From contig JALLLT010000037.1 of assembly GCA_025266875.1 (NCBI GenBank), positions 372,001-436,000 of the forward strand: a stretch of DNA of 64,000 nt, written 5' to 3'. The position numbers and the translations under genes are program-made. The stretch's first letter is position 1. Each line of letters begins with the position of its first letter. Source of the DNA: Fennellomyces sp. T-0311. Lineage: Eukaryota; Mucoromycota; Mucoromycetes; Mucorales; Lichtheimiaceae. Positions 12,912-56,966 of this stretch are shown here, piece after piece. Under the pieces are notes generated by a model. It was not told where the DNA came from. It did no database searches and saw only the letters and a program-made list of their open reading frames with translations.

Positions 12912-14829
12912 TTAAGCAATACGATCCAGTATCAATTGTCCCCCACGTTCGTGTTCGATGATGCGCTGAATAGCCTTCTTTTCGCTCAGAGGAATTCTCT
13001 CATCACTTGGATATACACTATCCTTACGAACATGAAGATACCGTAACAAGGGTAGTTTCTTTACTACTTCCAAGATATGCTTCCGCGCCATGTCCATTTC
13101 CAAATAAGAAAGCCGTTGCCCACCCACGTTTGAAAATCGGACCATACACGCTCGTAAATAACGTCGCCTACCCACGATTTTGAGATGGCGAAGAAGAGGA
13201 CAGCTTTTGGCAATGGTCACCAGTACCTGGTCGTCTACTTTCAGGTATCCATCAGTGTGTGGTTGGATGCCGCAACTGAATTTATCGGAAATTTCGATTA
13301 CTTCTAGTACCGGACACCGAGAAAAAAGTTCTGTCAACACCTGCTGGATGGGTGGTCCAATCTTAATTCTTCCCGGACTGTCCTCGGTCGACAAACGAAT
13401 TTCTCGTAATCGAGGTGCGCCACGACGTGCCAGCTTTCCAAGCGCATGTGGTCCGACTTTATGGCCGTAATGCAGATATAAAAGGCTCAAGGAACGGCTA
13501 TTTTTCTTAAAGACATGCACGATGTCTTCCTGCATCAGTCCAATTTGCCCACCACTAAGCACAAGCCTGACCAGTCCGATTGGCGTCATTGGTTTGTTGT
13601 TATCCATGGCAGTATGCGGTATATCCAGCTCATGGCAGTCGATTTGGCTCACCACAGTGGGAGGCATTTCGGCATCAAAGGTCATGACTAAATTTCGGAG
13701 GTACGGGCAATGCCTTTGGACTTGAGAAACGCAATCATCTTGATTGAGAAGACTTTTGGAATCCAGAAAAAGGTGTACCAAATTGGGACAATGAGCGAGA
13801 TTTTCGCATAGGCGTGGACCATCGATTCTGTCCATGGTGTTGTAGACCATGTACTGGAATGATAACTTGAGGTAGGTAAGCGATGAGAAAGTAGCACTTG
13901 GCGTGTCATTCTTGCTTCTGATCAACAAAGGAGAGTAATATTCCAAAGGGCCATCGATTCGTGAAAACGTCAAGTGCGATAGGTTCACGCACGATTCCAA
14001 TATGGGGTCAATTATACTGCGTTTGGGAATTTTGCACTCGATAAACTCCACTCGTTTTACTGATGAACTTGTTGATCCAAGTCCTATTGCCAAATAACTT
14101 GCATCCGAACAACTTAGCTGCAGTTTGTTAAAACCTATGACCGAAAGGTAAGTTAGAGAAAAGGAACAAATCTAGCCTTCTGTGGTAGTTATGCATACAT
14201 AGCTTGGTGATGACATGATTTTCGGTGTATGCTAATGATTTGAGAAGATCTACCACAAGACTAATATCCAATGGTCCATCAAACCAAAACTCTTGAGCCT
14301 GGCGACGTATCAGCGGTTCCAACCCTGACCTTTCCATCTGAGGCATTTCGATACGATGTTTCTCCCAGAACTTGGGCCAACTTGAAATAAAGTTAGACCA
14401 CGTTTGGCAAACACTTGTGCAGCGTAAAAGGTCTCGAAAGTTAAGTTTCGCAAAAATTAAACACCAGATATCGTAAGGGTTCAAGTATTGGAACATTTGG
14501 TGATGTTCCAAAAGTGTGGCTGATACACTTTGTGCTTCCTTTTGTAGTCGGGCGTACTGCGAATCAGTTGGTGGTACGGATAGCAGTCCTTGCTCGTAAA
14601 CAGCCAGCGCGGCGCGTAAATGTCCTTGTTGCTTATAAACTTCTCCAGCTGTGAGATAGCCTTCACCAGATTTAGGCTTCTTGCGTATCAACTTTTGTGC
14701 AGTAAGCTGTGCCTTCTCCAACTGAGCCGTGAAAGAACTGCCAGTGTCGGTCCATTGATTGGATTGATTTGTTACAGCCAAGTTACTGCTAGGTGCTATA
14801 TATTTGTAGGCGCCGTTGAGTGGAGACAT
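12912..14829 (-). CDS. TPR/F-box/leucine-rich-repeat protein (Dia2/Pof3-like architecture)
   Basis: Predicted substrate receptor of an SCF (Skp1-cullin-F-box) ubiquitin ligase. Two exons, 14829-14199 and 14134-12912; 617 residues. A TPR-like region (AQKLIRKKPKSGEGYLTAGE to LRAALAVYEQGL) is followed by the F-box LNPYDIWCLIFAKLNFRDLL with VCQTW, then a long run of leucine-rich repeats (for example CPNLVHLFLDS, CPYLRNLVMTF, CPLLRHLKIV). The order TPR, F-box, LRR is that of yeast Dia2 and fission yeast Pof3, but the sequence is that of a lineage-expanded family, so orthology is not claimed. The frame is open further upstream with an ATG at 15042; I prefer 14829. The single intron is phase 1, at the same place as in the genes at 15090 and 44734. 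Confidence 0.85.
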
Positions 14830-15089
14830 GATAGTTTCGTGGGGAAGAGTTAAAAGAGCCGCAGTATAAACGGAAAGCTTGGGATACAAGCCTGTATGCT
14901 GATTAGCATGGTCACACAAAGTTGATCTGGCACATGATTTGCACTGCGCTACACGAACACGGACACCTTGCAACGATGAAGAAAGGCTCGAAAAGTAACA
15001 ACATGTAAGATAACTCAATAGATCCGTGTTCATATCAGCCACATAAAATATCGGTTACTGCTGTAATTATATGCATAGCGTAAAAGCGT

Positions 15090-17001
15090 TTATTTCACCG
15101 TAAAATAGCCACCACGCTGTTGAAGTATACTATGGATAGATTCTCTTTGGGATTGAGACATCTGTAAGCACTTCCCTGATGCATCTTCTTGCTGATATAA
15201 ATATAAATACTTCAGAGAAGTGAGCTTGGTAACTAGATCCAAGGCAACTCTGTGCGATGTGTTGACTTCCAGGTAAGCGAGCTTGGAACCTCCAGTTGAC
15301 ACAAAGTCAAGCATAGTACTTGCTGAGTAATGGAACTCGCCCTCGAATTTCAAATGACGTAGCCGAGGGCAGCATTTGGCGATGGTAAGTAACATGTCCC
15401 TCCATGTCTTGCGGTTGCCGTCACTGTCAGTTGATAATTCCGAGCTATGGTCCAGGAATTTTATATAGTCGGCTATTTCGATAACCTCCAGAGATGGACA
15501 CTTTGAAAAAAGAGCAGCCAACGTCGGTATGATTGGTGGTCCGCCATGAAGAGATGCAAAAGTGGGGTACTTTTTTTGTGACATCAAATATATCTCTCGC
15601 AAATATGGTGCACCGTGGGATGCAAGTTCCGCCAATGCAGTGACACCGACACGGGGGTTTAACGTCAGATACAGGCGCTTCAAGGAACCGAATTTTTTGT
15701 TAAAGATCGAGATAATATGGTTGTTTTCAATGCCAGCAACTGCTCCATCAAGTACAAAGGTATCAAGCCCTTTGTCTGTCCAAAACTTGTCCGATAACGA
15801 AGGGCCCTCGTTGATTTGCTTGGAAATCAGTTCTGGTAGTTCTGCTTTGGGGCTCACAACCAGAGTTTTCAGTTGTGGGCAATACTGGAGTACAATGGAT
15901 ATACAGTCACCATGGTTTATCGCGCAATCTGTGGATAGGAACAAATGTTTCAAGTTGGGTGAACCGCCAATGACTTGAGCCGGTATCCGCTGAACATCGT
16001 CTATAGCCGTGTCAGTATTGCCTGTGCTTGTATAGTCTAGCTTCAGGTATGTCAACCATCGAAAGTAGAACTTGTCAGGCATAGGTTGACCGCGATATAA
16101 ATAGCCTTCATAGTATTGATTTTGTCTAGAACTTGAGGACACCATAACGCAATTTAGTGTTGCATGTGTAAGACTGCCAGAGCATGTCATCAGCAAAGGT
16201 GCTATGAGTCTTGCCGGAACCCTTCCTCCTTTGATGTCCAGCCGTGTTAATGGTGGATTGATCAACAATAATGCATGTCGCAGGTCGTTTATGATTCCAT
16301 GCTGTAGATCAACAGAGTTCAGTGCTTCAGATAAAGTTGCTATCAATGTACGTATATATTAATAGCGAACAAGGGCTCTTACCTAAGCGCTGACTCGAAG
16401 TATAGTTCCAGCATGAAAGAAACTTGAAGATATCTTTATCCATGCCATGATAACTGACAAGGGGGCCGCACACCTCGATCACTGGGAACTTGCGTTTGTC
16501 TGACAACGACCACGAAACCAGCTCTTCCCTTTGAAATATTTTAATTGGGAGTTGATGACGGAACCTTGGGATACGAATAATAAAGTTACGCCATGCCCTG
16601 GAAACGCAGGCGCAATGTAAAAGCTCGTTGAACTTGAGATATCCAAATATCGTGCTCCAAACGTTGGCTGGATCAAGCTCTTCAATTTTTCTTTGTCGGT
16701 CAATTGTGGCTGATACTTTTCGAATTTCCTTCTGTAGTGCATCACGTTTAGCCTCGTCTAACATGGCCCAGCGTAACCCGATTTGATAAACTTGCAGTGC
16801 TGCTTGTGGATTGCCTCTTGCAACGTAAATATTTCCAGAGTGTAGGTATTGTTGAGGGTCCTTCGGTGGCGTGATTTCACGTAATTCTACGCTTTTTGAT
16901 GTAGAATCTTGGTCGGACTCATTGCTATCTTTGATTGGGGTATATAAACAGCATGAAAATAGGATAAAAAAAGCTCTGCGCACACTTTGAATTAGACCCA
17001 T
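15090..17001 (-). CDS. TPR/F-box/leucine-rich-repeat protein, tandem paralogue
   Basis: Paralogue of the gene at 12912-14829, 260 bp upstream of it on the same strand. Two exons, 17001-16383 and 16339-15090; 622 residues. It differs at the N-terminus by a hydrophobic segment (RAFFILFSCCLYTP) that might be a membrane anchor. Then come a TPR-like unit (GNIYVARGNPQAALQVYQIG), the F-box (LDPANVWSTIFGYLKFNELL with VSRAWRNF) and leucine-rich repeats (SPNLKHLFLS, CPQLKTLVVS, CPSLEVIEIAD, CPRLRHLKFEG). As an SCF receptor it would pick substrates through the LRR. The F-box keeps the Pro and hydrophobic pattern needed for Skp1. Sequence divergence from its neighbour is high, so the duplication is not recent. 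Confidence 0.84.
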
Positions 17002-18440
17002 GTTTTTTAGGAAATGTCGGAAGAAGCGCGATCAAAAAAGAAAGGAATAAGAAAGTGAACCTTTATGTAGGTTTTTATTGTCGCACAAGAACGCATGACT
17101 ATGTGACAATCCGACGGCGCTGATGGCTACGCGCAATACTTTATCTATGCCACAGGGATGAATCGTTTCATATGACAAATGGCGGTGTTACTGGAAACCG
17201 GAGATAAGTATAAAATAAATGTGAACTTTTGATTCGATCATAAAGACTAGTTTTTAAATTTAAAAGTTCTTACCTACAGATTGGAAACGTAAACCTGATC
17301 TGCTGGTATCTTCACATATATACATATTCGAATCATTGACTCTCTTGATGCTCACTACTATGCTCTTTTGAAAAGCATTACGTCTGTCTATATGTATTTG
17401 AATCATCGTCACTCTACTGGCTTCTTTCAGAGAATGATGACTAGGACTAGAATTTTCCTGGAAGTAGCAATGAAACTCTTCTGTTTCGTTTTTTTTTTTA
17501 CTAATTTTCTTATCATATTTAGTCAGATCACGTATGTTTATGCATTCTTGTATGTGAAGATCAGAGAGAAAAAAAGCTCAGTACAATCCGGCATTCCGGG
17601 TCCAAAGAGTCAGATCTTCCTTTAAGAATTCTATTGACTGATTTTCTCATAGTGGCACCAAACTAAGATCAGAATTTACAGTTAACCCATTTTATTGTGG
17701 CATAGCGATATATCCTATGTCGGTAACCAGCTTGGGTTAATAATAAGCAATGCGGAGGTATTCATCTTCCTCCAAAAGAACGAATACACCGAATTACACT
17801 TCTGGTATGCTGTTCATCAGTATGACAAAGATTCCGTGGTGAAACTGTTCTAAAGATAACTAGTACTATCATATCCATAATCAGCAATCTCTTTATCATT
17901 AAATTCTTTTCAGAACACTTTTTCTTCAGACTACGCCTACTTTCCTTTTCAATAAGACATACCTTGATGCATTGTAAATCAAACTTAAAAAGATCGAGTA
18001 CCACTCACATGCCTCGTCAAGAGTGCAAAAAATCCCGCGTGGTATGTATCAGAGGTATTTGTGTCACACTTACATGAGGTAAAGGCTTCCATTATTTCAG
18101 TAAGCTTGCATAATTATTAATTAGGCGACACGTCTGTCACAGAGCACAAAATTCTCGGGACCTGAGAAACTGAACGGGTAAACTGGAGCCTTTTAAGATC
18201 AAATTGGGCTGTACAACGATTGATCATCCACGAATCAACCATGAAATCTTACTATTGGATTGAAATAGCCCCTTTCCCTACAACAAATTGCGCTTTCTTT
18301 GTTTAAAAACGCATCATTGCTTGGACCTTTAGCTGTGTCAAACATGGAAAACTCCGCGTATGACACAGCAGCCGGGCTATGCATTTTTTCTGGTCCTTGT
18401 GACAACCATAAGAACGCGTTCCATGTCATAAGATCACGCA
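17002..18440. other. AT-rich intergenic stretch
   Basis: Between the divergent F-box gene and DUG2. Only short frames without recognisable protein are present. Both flanking genes must have their promoters here. Confidence 0.5.
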
Positions 18441-27100: not shown

Positions 27101-27846
27101 TTCATTTATATGGTTTGACTGCTTTCGCCCGCCACTGCGCGCTGGTGATCAGCAATTTTCACACTCCTGCACGATGCACACATTGTTAACAATAACAATT
27201 CCATACTGAAATAACAGCTATATAAGCTAAAAAAAGTTAATTCTACGCTCCTTCATACCTAAAAGCGCCATTTTCTATTCACTTTCATATAAACTAATAT
27301 TATTCATGATACGGTGGCAGCAACGAGTACTTCTCTTTCAGACAGGCAATGTGGCGTATCTTCGTTAACATATTTCACTCCCAATTCTGTTGACTGAATG
27401 TCTCTGAAAGACTAATGAAGATTATCATCGCGGAAATAAAAGGAATAGCTACTGTAGATGCAGTGCCTTCAAGTGTTGATATAAACACTTAATGGCGTCT
27501 TTGTGTACGTATGAAATGTCTTTTATTGGAATTAATTCATAGCACTTAGCAAGTGAGCAAATCAACAAACATCCACTAAATCTGACTAGCCCCTGGTCCC
27601 AGAATGTTGGACCTCTTTAAATTAGTGGTCCTGAGAATTTTAGAGACAGATGTTCGTATGATTTATCGATGTTCAAGGATAAAATCCTAAAAGTATGCAG
27701 AAATGTTAGGAAGCTAAGATTCAAACTGCGTATGTATGGGCTGCATATACCGCTTTATGTAGTTACATACCTGATTGATACCATTCAACAAGTGAATTAC
27801 GACGAAAGCCAGAGTACCTGCTTTAATAACTACGTGATGACTTGCC
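24163..27846. other. Gene-poor stretch
   Basis: About 3.7 kb upstream of the bHLH gene. Only short frames occur, none with recognisable motifs. It includes the bHLH promoter, an AT dinucleotide run at 25719-25736, and AT-rich sequence with many short TA-rich motifs. I see no RNA gene. Confidence 0.5.
25719..25736. repeat. AT dinucleotide microsatellite
   Basis: Nine AT units in a row in gene-free DNA. Confidence 0.8.
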
Positions 27847-28494
27847 ATGAAGCTGCGCGCACATACATTACAGCTCAAATTCGCCACCAGACTCCAATCG
27901 CTCCCAGTGTCTACTATGGCCCGTGCGATTGAGCTTTCTTTCCTACGAAACGACTTGACCTCAACCAAGGACCCGGTGGCAGCGGTCATTGATAAGAAAC
28001 GAGACGAAGAGTTTACAGCTCGGTCTTCCAAGTACAAATCAATTCGGTGTCTAAGGCCATATCGCCTTGTCGACCCCATCTTGTACTTGGCAGCCTCATC
28101 TAAGAACCGACACCGACTGGTTAAATGGCGTATGCATTGGCTTCCCTCATACACTCTGAAGGACTGCGAATGCGGTACAGTTGCTGCCCCTCGAGAACAC
28201 TACGCCACCTGTCCATTGGTTCGGGCAGAACTTCAAGAACTACTCCTAGCATTTGGACCAGTCCCTGACCAGCAAAGCAATACACAGGTGATCGACTTTA
28301 TATTGAACAGCCTTCCGCGTTCAAATAATGGACTGGCCCGGGGCAAATGGAAGAAGGCATGGCCCGCACATTTGCATGTCCTCCGCAAGGTTGATAAACT
28401 GAGCCATAAAGACGAGCAGTACGATGACGATGAACCGGCACCGGAAGAAGCTCTTCAAGGCGGACCATCAGCACGTACAAACCACCACACTTAG
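27847..28494 (+). mobile_element. Remnant of a LINE-type retrotransposon: C-terminal tail of the RT polyprotein
   Basis: A 215-codon open frame. VDPILYLAA, RHRLVKWRMHWLPSY and the Cys/His cluster CECGTVAAPREHYATC (CxC-x8-H-x4-C) match what I know of the extreme C-terminus of reverse-transcriptase proteins of non-LTR elements common in Mucorales (pattern 'DPIL...RLIKWRLGWLP...C.C...H...C'). No reverse-transcriptase core or endonuclease lies upstream, so this looks like a 5'-truncated insertion, the usual fate of LINE copies. The frame is still intact to a TAG, and the C-terminus is acidic and hydrophilic. An independent host gene derived from such an element cannot be excluded. Confidence 0.55.
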
Positions 28495-36128: not shown

Positions 36129-38894
36129 TTACATGCTACTAATCATTTTTATAATACATTGTCCCCAGGATACTCGATCATATTGCACCTGAGGTAAATT
36201 GCATTCCCTGAGCTGATTCTGCCATGTTTCAGTCAGCGTCAGGTTAAGTTCAGATTCCAATGCTCGTTGCAGTTCTTGAGGGATTTGGTAAAGTGCATAT
36301 GCCAAATGATCTATGGCGTATTGACATAATGATGCACGTTGCAAAACTCGAGTTACTGCTTCCCGCAGACTTTTGTACTTGACATCATCCCAGCGAAGTG
36401 GCTCGCGCCACAACGGGTTCGAGCGTTCATATTGTTCAAGTGCTTGTACATCTGTCATGGAGAGATCCCAGCTCCCTCCTCGCACTTTTTCCATCAATGT
36501 CTGTAGCTGCGTCAGCTCCACAATCGCATAAATGAAAAACCTGGCATGCGATACGATCTGGACCAGCGTTGTCATGATTGGGCCGTCTTGTAATGACGGT
36601 AAAGCACATGGAATGTTAGCCATATTCTTTCCGAAAAACCGGGTACGTCCTTGCTGATCGTAGTAGCAGTGCTCTTTGATGAAGAACTGGACCGTGCTTG
36701 AATTCAATAGCCCACAAAAGTACTCGGGAGTTGGGCCGAGTATGCTCCGGGGTGTAAAGTACATGCACTGGTTCGTCAAGCAAAGCCTACTTCTGTCCAT
36801 AAAAAAGCGTTGACGAGGCTGAGACTTTGTAAAGTACCCATAGTTGATTGGATGTACGATTTTCACTGGCACATCGGCGCCACATTTGTTGTAATGACAC
36901 CAAGTGATTTTGCGATCGGCTCGACCGTCCTGCAATGCCTCCCGTGCTTCACTGAGATACCGGTATAACTCAGGGTACTGTTGCGGGTCGCGTTCCAGTT
37001 CATGAGCGCCAGTCTTGTCCACCAAGATCATTGAGTAAAATGGTTCGCCATTCTCGGTGCGGATGAGTGGCAGATACGCTTCTGCCGGGGACGTCTCCTT
37101 GCGGGTCAATCGCTGTGGATCACGATGGAGCCAGAACGTGCTTTCTTTGTCGACGCCTTTGGATTTTCCACTCCAATAAAATGCTGGACGCAGCCATCGA
37201 TCACAACAAGCTCGTCCAAATGTCTCTCGAGCCCATTGTGTCCTGACGACCAAAGCATATACAGGATTCGTGTTGGGACCTCTGTGAAATTCCAGCGGTG
37301 CATCTTCGCTGTTGCACAAACGTGGCAAATCACTCGTAAGATGGTTCAATTGGTCCGACAATTTCGAGGTAGGGGACAGGAACGCAAACGAAGCATTGGG
37401 CGATTGTCGGATTCTGTCAATATTGTCAACGCAAGTCAATTTGTACTTGAGCAACGGATCATGCACAGCTGTGCTATCGAAATGGGTATACGCGTACAGG
37501 ATATCATCCAATGTTGCCTTGCGTGACATGTGTCGCAAAAACAAGAGCTTTTTTTTCGTTGCATTTTCGTGTCGCATCCGGAGTCGAAAAATCAACGAGT
37601 CGGTCTGGATCTTGGGCCACACTTTGTATGGTTCGAATTGATACACCTCCAGTAGTTGACAGTGCTGCCACATCCATGCTCGCAAGTGGCGTGCAAATTC
37701 TAATATCATCCATTGGCTTGGGGTGATGAGGCATAGTTGGCCGGATACCGGGTCGCAGCGCTGCATACATATCCACATAAAATATAGGTAGGCTTGTGCA
37801 CCGCGCCCGCCCAAGACACGGGCATCGTAGAGCGCAGGGTCGGGTTCGGTAATCAGACCCGTTTTGCGAATCATGTACGGCGGATTGGTGACAATGTAAT
37901 CGAATTTAAGCTGCGTTGCATCGCGTAATCGCTGCAATTCGGCCCGCTCCCATGGCGACGCGTTGTCGTAGATGGTCAATCTAAGCGTATCGTTGCAAAA
38001 TAGATGTAGACGGTCTACTGAGACGATGTGATGGTTGGATAGTTCGGTGATTCGTTTGTATAATGGAAACAAGTGGACCAGCACATTAAGTTTCCCGAGT
38101 TTGAACGCAAATGGATCGATTTCAACGCCCCAGATGTTTTGTGGAATGGCGTGACATAGCATGTGCTTCAAGTATTCGGCATTGTTCCATATACTAGACG
38201 TTCCCATGCATGTGTTGACTAGCCGCGTCAGAAATTCGCACAAGAACGAACCTATCCCCATGCATGGATCAAACACGCGAGGCACTCCAGTAAGCAATTG
38301 AGTGTCAGCGAGACAGCTGTCCCACATAAATTGTACAATGCTCTGAGGCGTGTAGAACTGGCCGTGTTCTTTCCGTTGTTTCTTGGCATTGATTTCCAGA
38401 AAGCTGGTGTAAAAGTGCGAGAAGATCGAGTCAATGTACCGAAGTGAACGAAACACGATGCCGTGAGCGAGAAATAGCGAGCGCAGTTGTTCCACTTGTC
38501 GATCGTCCACATCGGTTATCATGCCGTCATGAAATAATGCCATGTAGGTCTTCATCACTCGGTAACCCATCAGATCCTGCAGCAACACATCGATAAACAC
38601 GAGATATATTGTCATTAGACCATGCGTGTCTGACTCTCCTGCAGAAACAAATAAAACAAATTGAGCATATTACTGGTTTTGGTCAGCGAAAAAAATAAGC
38701 TTACGTGATGTTTCCAGTAACGAACTTAGAATGGCCACCACCGCCTTAACTTGTGCTTCGGAAATGTCATCTAGAACTGCCATGGTTCGTTCTCGTTTTT
38801 CGGGAATGGGCGACTGCGGCGGTTCAGAATCGAACAACGTAGATGCGATCGTGTTTGGATCGGGTTGCTTCGTTGTCGGATCCAGTGTGTTCAT
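36129..38894 (-). CDS. Eco57I/TaqI-like N6-adenine DNA methyltransferase
   Basis: Bacterial-type SAM-dependent DNA methyltransferase expected to transfer a methyl group to adenine N6. Two exons, 38894-38705 and 38638-36129, 899 residues. The MTase core has motif X (HGQFYTPQSIVQFM, about 155), motif I (VFDPCMGIGSFLCEF, about 186), an acidic motif II (WGVEIDPFAFKLGKLNVL, about 232) and catalytic motif IV (FDYIVTNPPYM, NPPY about 315-318). A C-terminal half like the target-recognition part of type IIG/TaqI enzymes has EYFCGLLNSSTVQFFIK and GRTRFFGKNMANIPCALP. About 150 residues precede motif X, with no visible nuclease motif, so this looks like a methyltransferase without restriction activity. 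A 66-nt spliceosomal intron in the 5' part shows it is a resident nuclear gene. Start 38894 is the first in-frame ATG. All key residues are intact. It could act on DNA or, less likely, RNA. Confidence 0.9.
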
Positions 38895-40518: not shown

Positions 40519-41970
40519 ACATGTTCTCTCATCTCAACCCAGCACCATTGCATTTAACTCATGAACGTCTGCCATAGATTGTATTCCGAAATCCCGTCTT
40601 ACAGAACCGATCTATGGAAATCAATCAAGATTTCGCATCCGCGTTGGCACTAGCCTAACTACAGTATGGTACGCTGCCTTGGACATCACGTCAACGCTGT
40701 ATCTATCTGTGACATGACCAACAGGTTGACCTTGATAGAAATCACAAGTGAAGGAACATGGGAGTTGACAGTTGATGGGACACGGAACAGCCATCAAATT
40801 ATACCACCCATTCATCAGTTCAATAATACTTTGAAGCAGTTGTCCATATATGATTTCAAGGCGACTACCTGTGTCTCAAAAGTCCTTGAGCATTTTCCGA
40901 ATCTCACGCACCTCACGCTGTCGTTTTTTGGGCGAATCCACAAAGGACAATGCAATCAGCTATAGCAATCTTAGCCACTTGCATCTGAATGCAGTTTCAA
41001 GCATTGAGGATCAGATCATCCCTGTCCTACGTTCCTGTCCAAACGTAAAGACCCTGGCATCCGCACACACCGACTCCAGAGGTATATCGCCAGATGTCTT
41101 TGACCGTACGTTCAGCTATGTCCTGGTATACAGCACTTTAGCTGCGATAATACTACTATTCGGAAACCAGCGGAATGGATTGGAGCTGATTTCAGTGGCG
41201 GTGCTCTACAAACGTTCATATTCAAAGTTGATTTTGATGCACTACGTAAATTCAATGCTCGACTCACAAAGGCAGGTCACAGTCTGAAGCCCCTCCATCT
41301 TTTCAATAGAACGCCAAGGACTGTGATGGAGCGGAACTTTCTATCAGCACTACAATTCTCTCGTGTGCAAGAACTTATTCTCAAAGGCACCCGAATGACA
41401 GCTGATCAATGGCACCCGTTCTTGGTAGGCTTCCAACGTCTTCAATACGTGGATATATGTTTTTATATGATCGACTTCCGGTTAAGTCACTGTGTAAACA
41501 TAATCTGCCGTTGGAAAGACCTTGAGCGGCTGAAGATTGAAGCGCCGTGTTTCTTACGATTTTCCGAAGCGCGGGACAATATTGACTTACTATCCAACAC
41601 AAAGCCTCAAAACTTGACGTTGCACCGCGTATGCATTACATACAGAGGACTGTTGAGCATACTCCAAATACGATCATTGCGGGAACTCGCGATATCCCTG
41701 AGGAGAGATGGCTGCGCCAGCCTCGAAGTACAGCTGCAATTCTCCAATGGACGGAATGTCGTGAATTCTGCTCTTGAACTTGAAGCTTTCGGCGTTTGAA
41801 AACCTGAAAGACAATGTCCTTGAGCGTCTTACCAGCGTCACAAGCCTGTCGCAGTTCACGATACTGCACAACGACCTCATTACTTTCTTAGGAGTGAAGG
41901 CGCTTGCGTGTGACGGTGGTTCTGAAAGCATAGCCATAGGCCTGCATGCGATATTCATGTCGGCATGTCA
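40519..41970 (+). pseudogene. Decayed F-box/LRR gene
   Basis: Related to the intact genes at 42212 and 47057. The F-box core is missing about 25 residues: after a short start (MFSHLNPAP) the sequence resumes at VCHRLYSEIPSYRTDLWKSI, matching VCRHWHSEMPLYTTDLWKE of the neighbour. LRR-like pieces follow in different frames: MVRCLGHHVNAVSICDM, LEHFPNLTHLTLSFF, NLSHLHLNAVSSIEDQIIPV, a long frame from 41323, and ENLKDNVLERLTSVTSLSQF. At least three frame changes (near 40640, 40960 and 41780) plus an early stop make a working protein unlikely. Introns cannot explain all breaks because related genes have only one intron, located earlier. Confidence 0.7.
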
Positions 41971-42211
41971 CTGTGGGAAAGTGTTGCACGAATGGTTTCT
42001 TGTGAATAGATGGGTCCTCGCTATTACTTCTCCACATAGTGGATGTAATCAGTAGCTACATATGAACCTTTGCGCGCTATAAATTTCATGCGAGTGATGG
42101 TAGCCCAGCCAATTTATTGGACGCTAATCCAGAACAGGAAAGAGCAGTGTGGGCTGCTGTTTTTAGCTACCCGCATTAACATAACCTTTCTTAACACTTT
42201 TAACAAGCCGA

Positions 42212-43919
42212 ATGAACATCTTCCCAACCTCATTACCTCCTGAAGTTGTTTTAAGAATCGTTTCTTTTCTCGATCAACATGATTGCCTTCAATGCCTTCA
42301 GGTGTGTCGCCATTGGCACTCCGAGATGCCGCTGTATACAACCGATCTGTGGAAGGAGGTCGTGATTTCACCAGCATGCTGGAGCACGATGAATAGTTGC
42401 TTAATACGCAGTCTCGGTGTGCACACCCAGAAGCTCTCCATCAGTGACATGGATGTGTTCAGCATCCTGCACCGGTTCAAGAAGCTAAAATGTAAAATAA
42501 CCTCGCTCGGTTAGTTGCCACGTTAACGGCCGCTATGTTTTCTGTACTAAAAATGATGCCGTATTAGAAATCGCGCAAGTTCACGATGACACAATGACAC
42601 ATGATCAACATATGGAGGACCACGCCAGATTTCTTTCGACAATCAAGCAATTCGACTGGTCGTTGCGCCAGCTTTCCATCATTGACTATTCGTTCGGTCT
42701 GTTAGTGACAGAGGTGCTACAGCAGTTTCCTAACCTGACGCATCTTACATTGCTGTTCGACCACCGCTTACATGAATACTTATCCAAGCCTCTTGTGGTA
42801 CATGACACCAGCAATCCTGGGTTCCGGTCTTACGCGGGGCTTGTGTATCTTCACTTGGATGCCTTCCTCAACTTTGACTGTCGCATTGTTCCTACTCTTC
42901 GTCGTTGTCCAATGCTGAAAACTCTTCGCTTGTCGAATGACGGCATTGACGCCTTCAGTATGCCCTCCAATTTTGCCACTATTTTCCAGCTTTGTCCACA
43001 CTTAATGCATCTAACGTGGAACGAGGATCGATATCCTCCTGATATGCGTGACAGCATATTGATGCACGAATTGGACGCACCGTCTCCGAACACCACTAAT
43101 GGCGATTATAAAGGAACTCTTCAAACGTTTTTATTTAGCGGGAATATAAGCGATATCGATAGGGTACTGCCTATACTCAGAGCGTCGCATCACGAACTTG
43201 AACGGATAGAGCTTTCCTTTTGGGCAACGTCGGTGACTCCTGAACTGCACACCCTACTATCACGCATTTGCTTTCCGCGATTGAAGGCACTTGTGGTAAG
43301 TAGGCTGAAGATGGTATCGGATGACTGGGTATCGTTTTTAGCAGGCTGCCCGAGCATAGAGGTCCTTGATTTATATTTGTTTAAAGAAGATCTGGCTATG
43401 AACACCATATGTGCTATCGTCGGCTCGCTGGACCAACTCCAGTACTTGAAAATTAAACGTAGTGCCGAATCATGGACTCCTTCCCGGGAAGAGGCGATAT
43501 GGAGCAACACCATCATCCTTTCTAGAACTCGATTGCAATATCTTGACCTCGATGGCGTTTTACTTACGGACGACGGGTTGTTGAACTTGTGCGATATATC
43601 ATCATTGAAGGAGCTATCCCTTTCCCAGACGCGATATAGCTACATCACCCTTGAAGGATTACTGGCGTTTGCTGACAAACTAAACTCCAGTAAGAGCTGT
43701 CTTGCCACGCTGAAGCTTTCGTACTTTACGACCTTGGATGATACTGTCCTCCAACGCTTTTCACGAGCCAAAAGCTTATCATTTCTCTTATTACAATGGT
43801 GTCCCAAGGTTACTGAAGCAGGTCTGAAAGTATTTCTCAATGGTGGCGCCAACGGCGTAAAGAGAAAAGTCACAGTAGAACACTGTCGCTTGATTTCCAG
43901 ATTTCGGGGCTTGGGATAG
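42212..43919 (+). CDS. F-box/leucine-rich-repeat protein (short form without TPR)
   Basis: Predicted SCF ubiquitin-ligase receptor. Two exons, 42212-42509 and 42568-43919; 549 residues. The F-box sits at the very N-terminus (LPPEVVLRIVSFLDQHDCLQ, VCRHWHSEMPLYTTDLWKEV). Exon 2 carries LRR-type repeats (FPNLTHLTLLFD, AGLVYLHLDAFL, CPMLKTLRLSN, CPHLMHLTWNED, CPSIEVLDLYLF, LQYLDLDGVLL, SSLKELSLSQ). Exon 1 is 298 nt, exactly as in the gene at 47057, and the phase-1 intron follows the same residues (ITSLG). This marks the two as paralogues. It is 240 bp downstream of a decayed relative. No TPR, unlike the gene at 44734. Confidence 0.87.
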
Positions 43920-44733
43920 CCACGCACTGTATTCCCACAATGGTTGAACTCCATTCATAGTAGTAAAAGGAATGTATAGCTGATCGGATATATGATGTAA
44001 AAGTACTGTACTTCGCCATAGAAGTCATGATATATGATCACAAGTTGTTATTATATTGTTCTAAAAAAAGCCGTCCAACATATACAAAATCTACATACAT
44101 GGTGTCTTCCAGAAGTAATTCCAATCGAGTATGTGTTACCAACGTTGACAGCATTTACACAGTGACGTACATATGGCGAGTTATTTGGCGTAGCCCCTAG
44201 AAAATATAGTTCTGATGGAAGGATACTCCCCACTGCCCACCATTCCCTGGAGCAAATACACCAAAAGATTCAGTATTCTTTATTGGCCAAAGTATATTTG
44301 TTACGCAGGTACCCGAAGATGACACGTTGCATATTTTCCAAGGAAAAATCCCAAAGGACTATCACCACGAGATGATTGCTATGGACAACGTTTATGGAAA
44401 TTGGAGGACTGGAATGCCAAATATTGGTGCAACTATGGAAGGTAAATATTAGCTCTGTGTAACAAACTCCAATGCTCTCACTGCAGAAGCAGGATCGGCG
44501 ATATGGACGCATACACCAACCGAAACAAAAAAGTCGGCGATTCCCTTCAGGTAAAGCACATATGTTATGAATATCAAGGAATCAATACGACTATAAAAGC
44601 TACTCTAGGTAAGACGAAATACTCCTTTGATGACTAATATTATTGTGTGTCACAAAAAAAGAAAAACTTCTGAAATGCGCTCGTGTCATCGGCTTTTCCT
44701 CTTTTACGAGTTTCCTTCAATTTTTATACACAA
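43920..44733. other. Intergenic stretch with TATA box for the next F-box gene
   Basis: About 0.8 kb without a recognisable gene. TATAAAAG at 44592-44599 is a good core promoter candidate for the gene starting at 44734 or 44842. Confidence 0.45.
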
Positions 44734-46682
44734 ATGTCCACAGTAAAACACGTATATTCTGTCTTGAGTTCCATACGTTGGACGCATCACGAATCAACCG
44801 AGAGAAAAACGTGCTACAAGCAAGACTCTAACAAAAAAACAATGCGACAACAACAAAAGGCGCAACTTGCTGCTCAGAAACGTGTCAAGAAGTCACCATC
44901 ATCAGCAAACGGATATATCGCTTTGGGAGAAATATATAGGCAACAAGGCAGTTTACTGAGCGCGATCAACGTTTATAAACAAGGATTACGGAACGTCCCA
45001 TCAAGTGATGATCAGCATGCTCAGTTACAAAAGGAAATGAGCAGCGTATCAGCAGCACTTGCAGTTCGCCAGAAGATCCAGCAACTAGTCCCATACGACA
45101 TTTGGTATCTCATATTTCAATATTATCTCCGGCCTCGAGACCTTTTGCGGTGTGCTGGTGTATCCAGACTGTGGTACAATTTTGTCGTCAATATTCCCGG
45201 ATTCTGGCAGCAGTTTCCAATGCAAGTGTCACAAATGACCAGATCGATGTTGCATATTGTGACACCATATCAACCCCAAGTGATCCAGTTTCATGAATAT
45301 ATGGATCGTGATCTTATTGATGATATTCGCATGCTTCTTGCATATTGGAATTGCAACTCCACATTGAAGCTATGTGAGTTCATTTTTCTTAATGAAATAT
45401 ATGTTTATTGATTAATACCATATTTGTAGTATTTTACAAAGTACCCGTGTTGAGCAGTAGAAACATCAACCTCTTGACGCGCTTGCTACGGTCATTAAAT
45501 TGTTCAGTTCAAGTGGAGTTCATCGACTGCGCTTTTCCAAGGAGCAAAGTGATCTTTCCTATACTGGAGTCATGTACAAATTTATCATATGTGTCATTCT
45601 CGCAGAGCAGTGTGGAGACAACGGGATTTTCCGAGTCTCCACTTAACAAAATTGAAATCCCAGACATTCAACTCTTCTCTCTTACATACCTCAAATTATC
45701 CTTTCAGGATGCCGCTTACGTGGACGACGGACAAACCGGGAGAAATCTTCTATGTGGAATATTCTGCAAATGCCCCAACCTCATACACCTGTTTTTGGAT
45801 TCCGGTTGCTTACTCCATCACCGCGAATGCATCACTGAATCTCTAAAGCATTGCTCACGACTGGAAAACTTGGTGATGAATTATCGTGGAGAGATGCCTA
45901 TCAGCGTTATCAGCAGTATTAATGACCGCGAATTTAACCCACGCAGCAACTTTGTATTACTGGACTCTATACCCAATTACGCGACTCGACTACGTAGACT
46001 TGTACTCAACGGTGGTCACATCGAGCTTGATCAGGACGATATCGGGACAGCTTTCATGAATAACTACCAATTCTTGGAATATCTGCATCTGAATTACGGA
46101 CATACGGTTGGTCCGGATGCGCTCAGCAGATTGGCAGATTATGGTGCTCCACGATTACGGGAAATATGTATAACGGCAAATCGGTACCATCCAGACCTTT
46201 CCAATATCAACAACCCATCAATTCACAAGATACTTAGTACCCTCTTCTCTCGCTGCCCGAATTTGGAAGTGGTTGCTTTTGAGGATACGGTCGGCGCTGG
46301 TTTTCACAAGTCGATCAATGGAGTTATCGAAGGCGACAGCGAGGTGGTGAAAGCGATTGCTGAACACTGTCCTCGGCTTCGTCATCTCAAAATTCTCGGT
46401 GGTCGTCGTCGCCAAACACTGGATAGTATATTACACTTCGCTGCCATTCGGGGATCGAGACTGACTTATCTTGAAACTGATATGGTGCGCGATAATATAC
46501 TCGAGGTGGTCAAGAAGCTACCGTCGTTGCAGTACTTGCATGTTCGGTACGAGTCACGATTGGATGATGACATTCTCTCCGAAGAAGATAGGGCGGCAAT
46601 CCAGCACATTCTTTCAGATGAGCGGCGTGGAAAATTAATAATAGACGATAACCTGAATTTTGAAAGCGCTACGCTCATGTAA
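44734..46682 (+). CDS. TPR/F-box/leucine-rich-repeat protein
   Basis: Third TPR/F-box/LRR gene of the window, closest in design to the one at 12912. Two exons, 44734-45373 and 45430-46682; 630 residues. TPR-like region (AQKRVKKSPSSANGYIALGE, LSAINVYKQGLRNVP), F-box (LVPYDIWYLIFQYYLRPRDL, RCAGVSRLWYNFV), then LRRs (CPNLIHLFLDSG, CSRLENLVMNY, FLEYLHLNYGHTVGPDAL, CPRLRHLKILGG). The block GHTVGPDALSRLADYGAPRL is nearly the same as GHKVGPHALGKLARRGAPRL in the 12912 gene. The phase-1 intron is at the homologous position. Start: ATG 44734 is the first in frame; ATG 44842 (MRQQQKAQ) just before the TPR is an alternative and may be the true one. Confidence 0.85.
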
Positions 46683-47056
46683 TTAAATAAACTATGCCTT
46701 TTCTTTGTGGATAAGCGTAATAAACCAGTACAAAGGAATATCAAATACTTCTCTCGATTTGTAAAGGTTAAAGCGTTACGAATGTATGGATAAGGACAGC
46801 GTGTATGCTTTTTCCCGTGCCTGAAAGGTCCGTAAATTGATATATCATGTTGACACCTACTATTAGATTGCAGATGTCGTGCTCCATGGCAACTTTTGTC
46901 CAGGTGCGTAACAAGGAAGCAGCTACACGATTAGTTATCAAGTTTGCGTAAATGTTAATCGGAGAGCGTTTCAGCATTTGTTCCCAAAAATGGTTGCATT
47001 AATCGTGTCCATAAGCTTAACTATTTTTTTACTTTACACTCTGCACATAAATAACA
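46683..47056. other. Short intergenic stretch
   Basis: 374 bp between two same-strand F-box genes; presumably terminator of the first and promoter of the second. Nothing else seen. Confidence 0.5.
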
Positions 47057-48688
47057 ATGTCTAAATTCCCATCCCATCTACCACCGGACATTGTTTTCAA
47101 CATTCTCTCCTACATTGACCAGAAGGACTGTGTCGAATGTCTGCGCGTATGCCGCTCATGGTTTGCCGAGATTCCTCTTTACGCCACGGATCTATGGAAG
47201 CAGATCTCCATCTCCCTCATGACGTGGAATAAAACCAACACCTGCCTAATACGCTGCATTGGACCGCACACAAGATACGTGTCTATACGTAACATGTATA
47301 TGTTCCACGCGTTAAGCCGGCTCAAAAAATTAAATTGCGCGATCACCTCACTAGGTTAGTTGGGTTGATTCCTTTGACCATGCAATGATACTGAACAAAG
47401 AATAGAAGTCGAACGACACGTATCAACTCGATGGATCTATGACAGCACCAAATTTCTATCAGCAATCATGCAATTCAGTGACACGTTGACAGAGCTACAA
47501 ATCACCAATCGTTCGTCGAGCTTATCCGTATCACAGCTGCTACATCACTTGCCAAAGTTGACGCACCTCACCTTGCTTTTCGATGACCTACCGTATCGGC
47601 ATCAGTATGAGGCCATTGAAGATGATACCAGTTCTAACCCCAGCCAGCTTATCTATCTGCATTTGGACTCGACACTCCATTTCGATCATCGAATCGTGGC
47701 TGCATTGCGACGGTGTCCAAAATTAAAGGCCTTGCTTCTATCCAGTGGTAGCTTGAACATATTGCCAACGCCCGCCAATTTTGGACAAATATTCCAATTA
47801 TGTCCATACTTGACCCATTTCGCTTGGAACAAGCAAAGAACATTCCCAATAGTAAAAGACGATCCAATATGCAAACGATGGATGAAAGCATCCAATAGTG
47901 ACGACGACGAAGGGATTCAGGAGCTCTTTTTCAGCGGAAACATGAACGATCTCGACAAAATTGTACCAGTACTTGCAAAGTCGCGACACACTATTGCATC
48001 CCTAGAACTTGTCAACGAATCAGATCCGATTGAATGGAACCGTCTTTCACGGCTTCCTTTTCCTCGGTTGAAAAGACTGACCTTGCACAACTTGAAGATG
48101 GACGAGATTGAGTGGATCGCATTATTGGCTGGGTGCCAAAATATAGAGAGCCTTGAGCTAACACTACAGACCGTGCATATGGACCGCATGACAGAAGCCA
48201 TCAGCTCGTTAAAGTACCTCAAGTATCTGTACATTGCTCAGGATACCGGAGATGCAGCGTTTTGGAGCAATGCAAGAATGCTTTCCAGCAATACGTCACT
48301 TCAACGCTTAAGGCTGATCGGAGTACCGATGGAGGACACCGTATTATTGGCCTTGTGCGAGATGCCAACATTGAAGGACTTGTCTCTATCCGAACAACCG
48401 TATACCAGTACCATTGGACTTGACGGATTGCTGGCATTTGCTGACAAACTCAAGGAAAGCTGTATTGAAACGCTTGGGCTCATCTATTTTGAATGCTTGG
48501 AGGATAAGGTTCTCGAACGTCTTGCACATGTCAACAGCTTGTCTATGCTTACTATCCTATTCAGTCCTCGGATTACCGATGCCGGAGTAAAGTCGTTCAC
48601 CCGTGGCGGAGCCACGGCGAAAAAGATTGATGTGCAGTACTGTCAATCGGTTTCTAGACGTGGTCTCTGGGCTGAAGAATTCTGTTAA
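47057..48688 (+). CDS. F-box/leucine-rich-repeat protein (short form without TPR), paralogue
   Basis: Paralogue of the gene at 42212. Two exons, 47057-47354 (298 nt) and 47406-48688; 526 residues. N-terminal F-box: LPPDIVFNILSYIDQKDCVE, VCRSWFAEIPLYATDLWKQI. LRR-type repeats: LPKLTHLTLLFDD, QLIYLHLDSTLHFDHRIV, CPKLKALLLSSG, CPYLTHFAWNKQ, CQNIESLELTLQ, TLKDLSLSEQPY. The exon 1 length, intron phase and flanking residues are the same as in the 42212 gene, but the proteins differ a lot through the LRRs, which would be expected if substrate choice is what diverges. Predicted Skp1-binding receptor of an SCF ligase; targets unknown. Confidence 0.87.
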
Positions 48689-55356: not shown

Positions 55357-56966
55357 ATGAACCAGCTGGATGAGCCCTTGCTTTTCGATATGAACAACGG
55401 CGAGCATCAAGAAGTCAAAGACTTCTTTCAGCGGTGTGGTCTGCTTCAATATCTGCATATCTTTATCTCTGAAGGATTCGAGAGTTTGTCTGCGGTAAGC
55501 CATCTTCCTAGGTAGGTTTCAAGTTGATCTGATGGCGCTGTATTATCCACTTAGCTGTATGAAATTACCGAAGAAGATATGGTTGCCATGGGTGTCAAGC
55601 GGGGCCACCGTAGGGTAAATGTTCTTTCACCTTCTTTACCCCTTCCACATTTAGTAAGCGTTTTCCTTGCTAACTGCTAAACGGTAGTTGATTCAGCGCG
55701 ATATAGCTAACGCACGAAATCTTCCTCCACCGGACTCGATTGGGGCGCCTCCGTTTAGTAGGTTCTTTTATATTTGACCCGGTAAGAATTCATTTAAAGA
55801 TTGAACTTGTTAGATACTTCCAGAAACTTCTATGACATTCTATAACCCATCACCATCTGCTCCCCGGGATTCGTTCTCATCGGCGACCAACACGCCACCG
55901 TCGTCTGCAGACGTTTCCGGAAACGCAGATTCTAACAGTACTGGTAGCGGATCCAGCAGCAGTGGCGGCAATGGAAGCGCTAGTTCCAAACGTGCCAGCG
56001 ATGTGATCATTCAGCATCAAACAAAGCGCAAATACCGACGGCGCCCAAAGCCCGACAAAAATGCCCCTGTCAAACCGCCCTCAGCTTACATTATGTTCTC
56101 GAATGAAGTCCGCGCGGAAATGAAAGATCAAAACATGAGCTTTGCAGAAATAGCCAGAAGCATTGGCGAGCAATGGAAGGCTATGAGTCCTGAAAAGAAG
56201 CATTCATACGAGATCACAGCCATGCAAGCTAAAGATGCTTATTTGATTGCTATGCAACAGCATAGACAGACCGCAGAATACAAACAGTATCAAGAGTACT
56301 TAAAAGGGTTCAAAGAGAAGCAAGCCGTCGCTAACCGACTTATCTCCCGCGCTCGTCGGCGTTCACCATCCAAAAAAACTGATTCGCCAAGCAGGTAGTT
56401 ACCATTCGTGGTTGGTATGTTTTCTCCCTAAATCTAAGGAAACATTTTCTCCCATAGTAGTAGTAGTATAGCTGATTCGAGCTCCAATGCGACGGAACGC
56501 GACAGCGCAGTGCAAACAACAGTGGATAGCAGCGAGAGTGGCAGCAGCAGTAGTACAAGCAACTCTGATCTCCAGCAACAGATATTCCTTATCAAGCTGC
56601 CAGAGCATAATAGGGCTGTGGTTTGTGCTCCAAATCTGAGGTTTCCCTGCTTCGTTCATAAGCGTTGCACTGAGGCCGATACTTGTATAACTCACCTTTC
56701 CTTATACTTTTGTTATATCTTGTAGCCCGAACACTACTACCAACAAAGATGGCCAAACGAAAGCAGACAAGGAGCAAGCTATGAGCCAGGATAAATCTGC
56801 TTCCCCGCAACCTCTTCCAAGGCGAAGACCTAGAGCTCATAGTGCGGCTTCGTCGCCAGTTTCTAAATCAGAGGGCTCCGAACTTGGTACGGTTATGAGA
56901 CGACAGCGCAGCCATAGCTTTGGCGAAAGTGAAAAGTCAACAGATACCCCCGCAATCATCAAATAA
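55357..56966 (+). CDS. SAM-domain plus HMG-box DNA-binding protein
   Basis: Probable nuclear DNA-binding regulator. Six exons: 55357-55494, 55555-55614, 55688-55757, 55824-56394, 56458-56640, 56726-56966; 420 residues. N-terminal SAM domain spread over exons 1-3: VKDFFQRCGLLQYLHIFISE, GFESLSALYEITEEDMVAMG, VKRGHRRLIQRDI. After a Ser/Gly/Asn-rich linker comes an HMG box: RRRPKPDKNAPVKPPSAYIM, FSNEVRAEMKDQNMSFAEIA, RSIGEQWKAMSPEKKHSYE. The C-terminus is Ser-rich, with a basic RRRSPSKK patch and RRRPRAHS. Exon 5/6 joining is the least certain: the donor at 56641 keeps frame but is followed by an unremarkable sequence. SAM would mediate self-association or partner binding. Targets unknown. Confidence 0.88.

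Follow-up and report, generated by a model that had tools for sequence, protein, structure and literature searches.

The window analysed here, a stretch of 64,000 nucleotides of the Fennellomyces sp. T-0311 genome (assembly GCA_025266875.1, contig JALLLT010000037.1, referred to as C114 in this analysis, 372–436 kb), carries a gene encoding a putative DNA N6-adenine methyltransferase of prokaryotic type, a candidate for MetB, an N6-methyladenine (6mA) writer described in Mucor. The gene lies on the minus strand, from the ATG at 38894-38892 to the TAA stop codon at 36129-36131, and its predicted spliced product has 899 residues. Its features are listed below; CamA, used as a reference, is an adenine methylase of Clostridioides difficile, and SAM stands for S-adenosylmethionine.

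38705..38894, minus strand: predicted exon 1, beginning with the ATG and spanning 63 codons and one further base (sequence, splice join, coding score)
38639..38704, minus strand: predicted spliceosomal intron, GT-AG, 66 bases, GTAAGC...CTGCAG (sequence)
36129..38638, minus strand: exon 2, with methylase domain, putative target-recognition domain, C-terminal helices and stop TAA (open frame, Pfam, AlphaFold model)
37785..38429, minus strand: N6_Mtase (PF02384) match, frame residues 81-295, 60.5 bits
37617..38141, minus strand: Eco57I (PF07669) match, frame residues 177-351, 77 bits
38346..38363, minus strand: motif X, GQFYTP, residues 156-161, F158 aligned to CamA Tyr30 by eye
38244..38270, minus strand: motif I, DPCMGIGSF, residues 187-195, SAM binding (sequence, alignment)
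38106..38129, minus strand: motif II, GVEIDPFA, residues 234-241, SAM binding (sequence, alignment)
37875..37886, minus strand: motif IV, NPPY, residues 315-318, catalytic (sequence, alignment)
37617..37619, minus strand: W404 in VWP, at the place of the cage phenylalanine Phe253 of CamA (alignments, correspondence by eye)
36609..36815, minus strand: TaqI_C-like stretch, containing LLNSS, of the putative target-recognition domain (sub-cut-off match, within the CamA structural match)

A preliminary description of this DNA had placed the gene at 36129..38894 with a spliceosomal intron near its 5' end, and the start, the stop and the intron coordinates were all reproduced. The predicted intron is supported by the joining of the two exons in frame upon splicing, by an in-frame stop at codon 75 if it is retained, and by the coding score of exon 1, which is 7.28 nats in the joined frame versus 3.06 and 1.58 in the other two frames (3 stops each). 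No Pfam family was found above its cut-off in exon 1. Chance does not account for an open frame this long (846 codons): under the base composition, its probability is about 1e-22 per start. The catalytic claim holds with or without the intron, because an intronless start at ATG 38615 keeps every methylase motif.

Hidden Markov model (HMM) searches agree with the intact core of Eco57I type proposed earlier. In a Pfam scan of the open frame, Eco57I (77 bits, cut-off 25.3) and N6_Mtase (60.5 bits, cut-off 20.4) were both far above their cut-offs, while TaqI_C (21-22.8 bits versus 26.5) and MmeI_Mtase (19.8 bits versus 27) remained below. The match to Eco57I was the single one found across the assembly. 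Motifs X, I, II and IV are all present, HGQFYTPQ, DPCMGIGSF, VEIDPFAF and NPPY beginning at spliced residues 155, 187, 235 and 315, respectively. Five aligned rows agree fully at the D, P, F and both glycines of motif I, and at the G, P, F and A of motif II. Across a 52-row alignment, no row departs from the T-P of motif X, the two glycines and F of motif I, or NPP (52/52 rows). The order X, I, II, IV (NPPY), followed by a C-terminal recognition domain, is the arrangement of gamma-class DNA N6-adenine methyltransferases. We take gamma to be the proper class name for this Eco57I/N6_Mtase DNA N6-adenine methyltransferase, and the paper on CamA uses the same name. For the MT-A70 family (PF05063), the frame yielded nothing at E values as high as 0.1, and there was no match at the place of the gene in the assembly search; the protein carries NPPY, not the DPPW of the MT-A70 type. 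The best matches in PADLOC (MAD2, E 4.6e-19), NCBIfam (Alw26I group, 39.5 bits versus a cut-off of 353.5) and PHROG (phage DNA methyltransferase, E 1.5e-20) are distant kin of the fungal protein, as judged from these scores, and do not give its identity.

About 155 residues precede motif X. The earlier suggestion that no nuclease is visible was upheld: neither the frame nor its three pieces gave a Pfam match to a nuclease family, the part before motif X showed no family above cut-off, and residues 1-150 contain no [DE]xK. Restriction by this chain is unlikely because of these last two results, and a very divergent nuclease could escape these tests. The protein shares the order of methylase and then recognition domain with type IIG/IIL enzymes (MmeI 5hr4, DrdV 7lo5, and haloarchaeal relatives such as L012). 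In contrast to them, it shows no detected nuclease domain, and the nuclease in the same chain that defines type IIG was not found. Seven relatives were scanned for comparison. An HSDR_N-type restriction domain stands before the methylase above cut-off in L012, L014 and L017, and below cut-off in L031; none was seen in L013, L019 and L092. The PglX/BrxX methylases of bacteriophage exclusion (BREX) systems (9ewz, 8c45) differ by their length of about 1200 residues and by belonging to a multi-gene defence system.

The AlphaFold model of the exon 2 product (mean predicted local distance difference test score, pLDDT, 70.7, with low-confidence stretches in the divergent recognition domain) matches the fold of CamA. 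Compared with DNA-bound CamA (PDB 7lni, 7lt5; PMC8187626), the model gave template modelling (TM) scores of 0.68-0.74, and the predicted fold aligns across both the catalytic and the recognition domains over 539 residues, with 17% identity in the aligned part. The predicted likeness to CamA is closer than that to MmeI. The preliminary description had likened the C-terminal half to target-recognition regions: the fold comparison supports such a domain, whereas TaqI_C matched it only below cut-off. CamA is reported to be an orphan adenine methylase with a catalytic and a C-terminal recognition domain, and the fungal model likewise shows a two-domain fold with no nuclease detected. According to PMC8187626, Tyr30 of CamA is one wall of the base-flipping cage, Phe253 is the cage phenylalanine, and the asymmetric site CAAAAA is recognised. 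The fungal protein appears to share NPPY and the aromatic cage positions, which would be F158, Y318 and W404 by alignment. CamA has only 577 residues, the fungal protein being longer at the N-terminus and having additional helices at the C-terminal end.

Relatives were sought in prokaryotic, viral and plasmid sequence collections. Best segments showed 21-30% identity to prokaryotic loci (best 80 of 146 confirmed loci, so that closer relatives may exist). On viral contigs, a single-protein scan gave nothing, and a profile scan gave 28 distant loci with best segments of 21-31% identity. When ten genomes or records were re-searched with HMMER, six matched at 1e-5, with 23-32% identity. Short BLAST segments of higher identity (e.g. 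47.6% over 21 residues, E 3.3) were discounted as chance. A phmmer search of 1119 frames gave 102 matched frames, of which 22 under 20 bits were dropped. The 80 left supplied two hand-picked sets: 51 frames, used for alignment A2 and the tree, and 46 frames, used for alignment A3 and the fold. The ranking is headed by a haloarchaeal protein (78.1 bits), followed by a Bacteroidales protein (72.7) and the haloarchaeal virus enzyme L005 (65.0). In the phylum of L013, a relative from a Bacteroidales metagenome-assembled genome, a match at E <=1e-10 was seen in 1 of 395 genomes, the one used as centre; the rows shown include scores for no more than two candidates from each genome. The top identity in the tree set was 27% over 286 columns. 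In the 52-row tree, the fungal gene forms a long end branch (1.84) with no supported neighbour, and the tree program flagged both the meeting of long branches and an unusual letter make-up of this gene. For these reasons, naming a donor was rejected. Eight Lokiarchaeal Eco57I-type frames of 624-655 residues (L019, L024, L025, L027, L029, L030, L033 and L038) form a fully supported group (100/100) in this tree; L019, the one scanned, is without restriction domain.

The preliminary description raised the possibility of a separate 6mA writer of prokaryotic origin. A motif-specific second writer in early-diverging fungi, of bacterial origin and outside the MT-A70 class, is already published as MetB. 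Lax et al. 2024 (PMC11258239) scanned 183 proteomes and describe metB as a PF02384 protein of horizontal origin, found in prokaryotes, in fungi of the Mucoromycota, Mortierellomycota and Glomeromycota, and in some exceptional cases outside these. The fungal sequences form a well-supported clade, with identity to bacteria often below 30%. Deletion of metB in Mucor is reported to lower 6mA by 70-75%, mainly its asymmetric part, and to abolish the AAA6mACA motif; symmetric 6mA was lost when mta1 was deleted. The MetB finding recurs in two later publications, a review of 2026 and a Nature Genetics paper of 2025 (PMC13297926, PMC12695648). By the criterion of PMC11258239 itself, an N6_Mtase domain in a protein of fungal setting, the window gene is, on its sequence, the MetB candidate of this genome. 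PF02384 exceeded its cut-off at two places in the assembly, this gene and a short frame on contig C128. The latter was read by eye as HemK/PrmC-type. The gene is thus the sole match of DNA-methylase type seen in the assembly, although an intron-broken gene could be missed, and it is most likely MetB for that reason. Like MetB of Mucor lusitanicus (JGI ID 1597305), it belongs to the N6_Mtase family in an early-diverging fungus, occurs beside MT-A70 genes, and has low identity to prokaryotic relatives (21-32% in significant segments among the matches listed). We infer orthology to Mucor MetB, the two proteins being likened by description. For Mucor MetB, HHpred is reported to point to MmeI, whereas the present model is nearest to CamA. 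The word CamA does not occur in PMC11258239 (word search), and a MetB-CamA link elsewhere was not searched for. We consider it highly probable that the gene is the MetB of an early-diverging fungus: a gamma-type enzyme derived from prokaryotes long ago, free of nuclease, intron-bearing and acting on the fungus's own DNA.

An improbable alternative is that a bacterial methylase with its own target sequence entered this lineage later and separately from the MetB of Lax et al. The higher score of PF07669 over PF02384 and the structural proximity to CamA rather than MmeI could be read in this way, and two transfers into fungi have been reported (PMC11258239). However, a transfer of recent date would be expected to have a close counterpart among bacteria: the second fungal clade is reported there to be 50-80% identical to bacteria, versus at most 32% here among the matches listed. 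Nor was another MetB candidate seen in the assembly, within the limit given above for intron-broken genes. A viral origin, for instance from a giant virus infecting a fungal ancestor, is kept as a weak rival and is very improbable. Giant-virus adenine methylases (Bodo saltans virus, Yasminevirus and others) match the model, the haloarchaeal virus enzymes L005 and L094 (55.8 bits) score above most prokaryotic relatives, and viral contigs of 309-673 kb carry some of the relatives. Yet the viral structural matches (TM to target 0.21-0.61 for the top ten) are weaker than CamA, the two best sequence matches are archaeal and bacterial, the best match on a contig above 300 kb reaches only 39.6 bits (L092), and one of the four large viral records re-searched matched at 1e-5. 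None of the 10 neighbouring frames scanned is a viral gene. That the protein is degenerate, or a methylase kept for another job than DNA modification, is extremely improbable. Its recognition domain is divergent, with the poorly modelled stretches noted above, and MetB function was demonstrated in Mucor and not in Fennellomyces; however, a long stop-free frame preserves motifs X, I, II and IV as well as the positions of the aromatic cage.

The MetB candidate was found once in the assembly by protein search, about 408 kb into its contig (assembly of 45.6 Mb in 182 contigs). Among ten neighbouring frames, four exceeded Pfam cut-offs (protein kinase, leucine-rich repeat (LRR), F-box and HMG box), one matched aldose epimerase below cut-off, and five had no Pfam match. 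The codon usage of the methylase is host-like: its correlation with the pool of 11 neighbouring frames, which run from stop to stop and are not gene annotations, is 0.848, versus 0.56-0.85 for each neighbour against the pool of the rest. Its GC content at third codon positions is 0.53, versus 0.40-0.66 for the neighbours. The neighbours, the codon usage and an MTA1-like gene elsewhere in the genome all point to a fungal setting, and the earlier view of a prokaryote-type N6-adenine methylase gene with fungal-type genes on both sides is borne out by the Pfam matches and the codon usage. Bacterial contamination or misassembly at a contig junction, for which membership in a bacterial family alone would speak, has next to no probability and was rejected given the intron, the host-like codon usage, the fungal-type flanks deep inside one contig and the lack of a close bacterial relative among the best 80 of 146 loci. 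The surroundings present further features. F-box/TPR/LRR-type frames (TPR, tetratricopeptide repeat) flank the methylase in two stretches, 12912-17031 (minus strand) and 40835-48688 (plus strand). Within them, 44674-45408 matches F-box-like, 42501-43916 matches an LRR family, and 12912-14171 and 45396-46682 resemble paralogues by eye. The HMG-box protein (51.6 bits) is encoded at 55814-56398 (plus strand), and a frame of 217 residues at 27841-28494 (plus strand) resembles, on inspection by eye, the terminal part of a non-LTR (long terminal repeat) retrotransposon reverse transcriptase.

The assembly also contains three MT-A70 loci, on C98 (L009), C35 (L008) and C57 (L010). The C98 gene matches PDB chains 7f4r and 7yi8 at about 108 bits over 78 residues, versus about 49 bits for METTL3; we take these chains to be ciliate MTA1. 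The best match of the C35 gene is 7cv6 (140.5 bits), presumably METTL4-like. No frame of the C57 locus contains DPPW, and this gene is perhaps an MTA9- or METTL14-type partner. As had been proposed, the window gene belongs to a methylase class other than MT-A70; the genome holds an MTA1-like gene as well. The MTA1/AMT1 complex is likewise a 6mA writer in early-diverging fungi, but of the other class (DPPW) and with symmetric ApT methylation. AMT1 is reported to be absent from Dikarya (PMC8298701), and the MTA1-like gene on C98 accordingly points to an early-diverging fungus.

The MetB candidate probably methylates adenines in the genome of its own host. In the mechanism we propose, a single enzyme, having one recognition domain, would bind a short non-palindromic site, and one adenine would be flipped into the aromatic cage. 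Since the predicted recognition domain is single and such a site is not palindromic, one strand would be methylated, giving asymmetric 6mA as written by MetB in Mucor. The MTA1-type system, for which the genome has a candidate catalytic gene, would be responsible for symmetric ApT methylation. A more far-reaching idea, which we regard as doubtful, is that the gene is a domesticated CamA-like orphan methylase with a diverged recognition domain, and that its orthologues write 6mA at different one-strand motifs in different early-diverging fungi. If true, eukaryotes would have, next to the symmetric MTA1 code, an epigenetic code that came from bacteria and can change. The predicted likeness to CamA may give a concrete reason for the asymmetric methylation of MetB type, and suggests that the solved CamA-DNA structures could guide assays of fungal MetB. 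From its sequence, a further fungal genome thus appears to combine a prokaryote-derived methylase with an MTA1-like gene, the candidates for the two 6mA systems.
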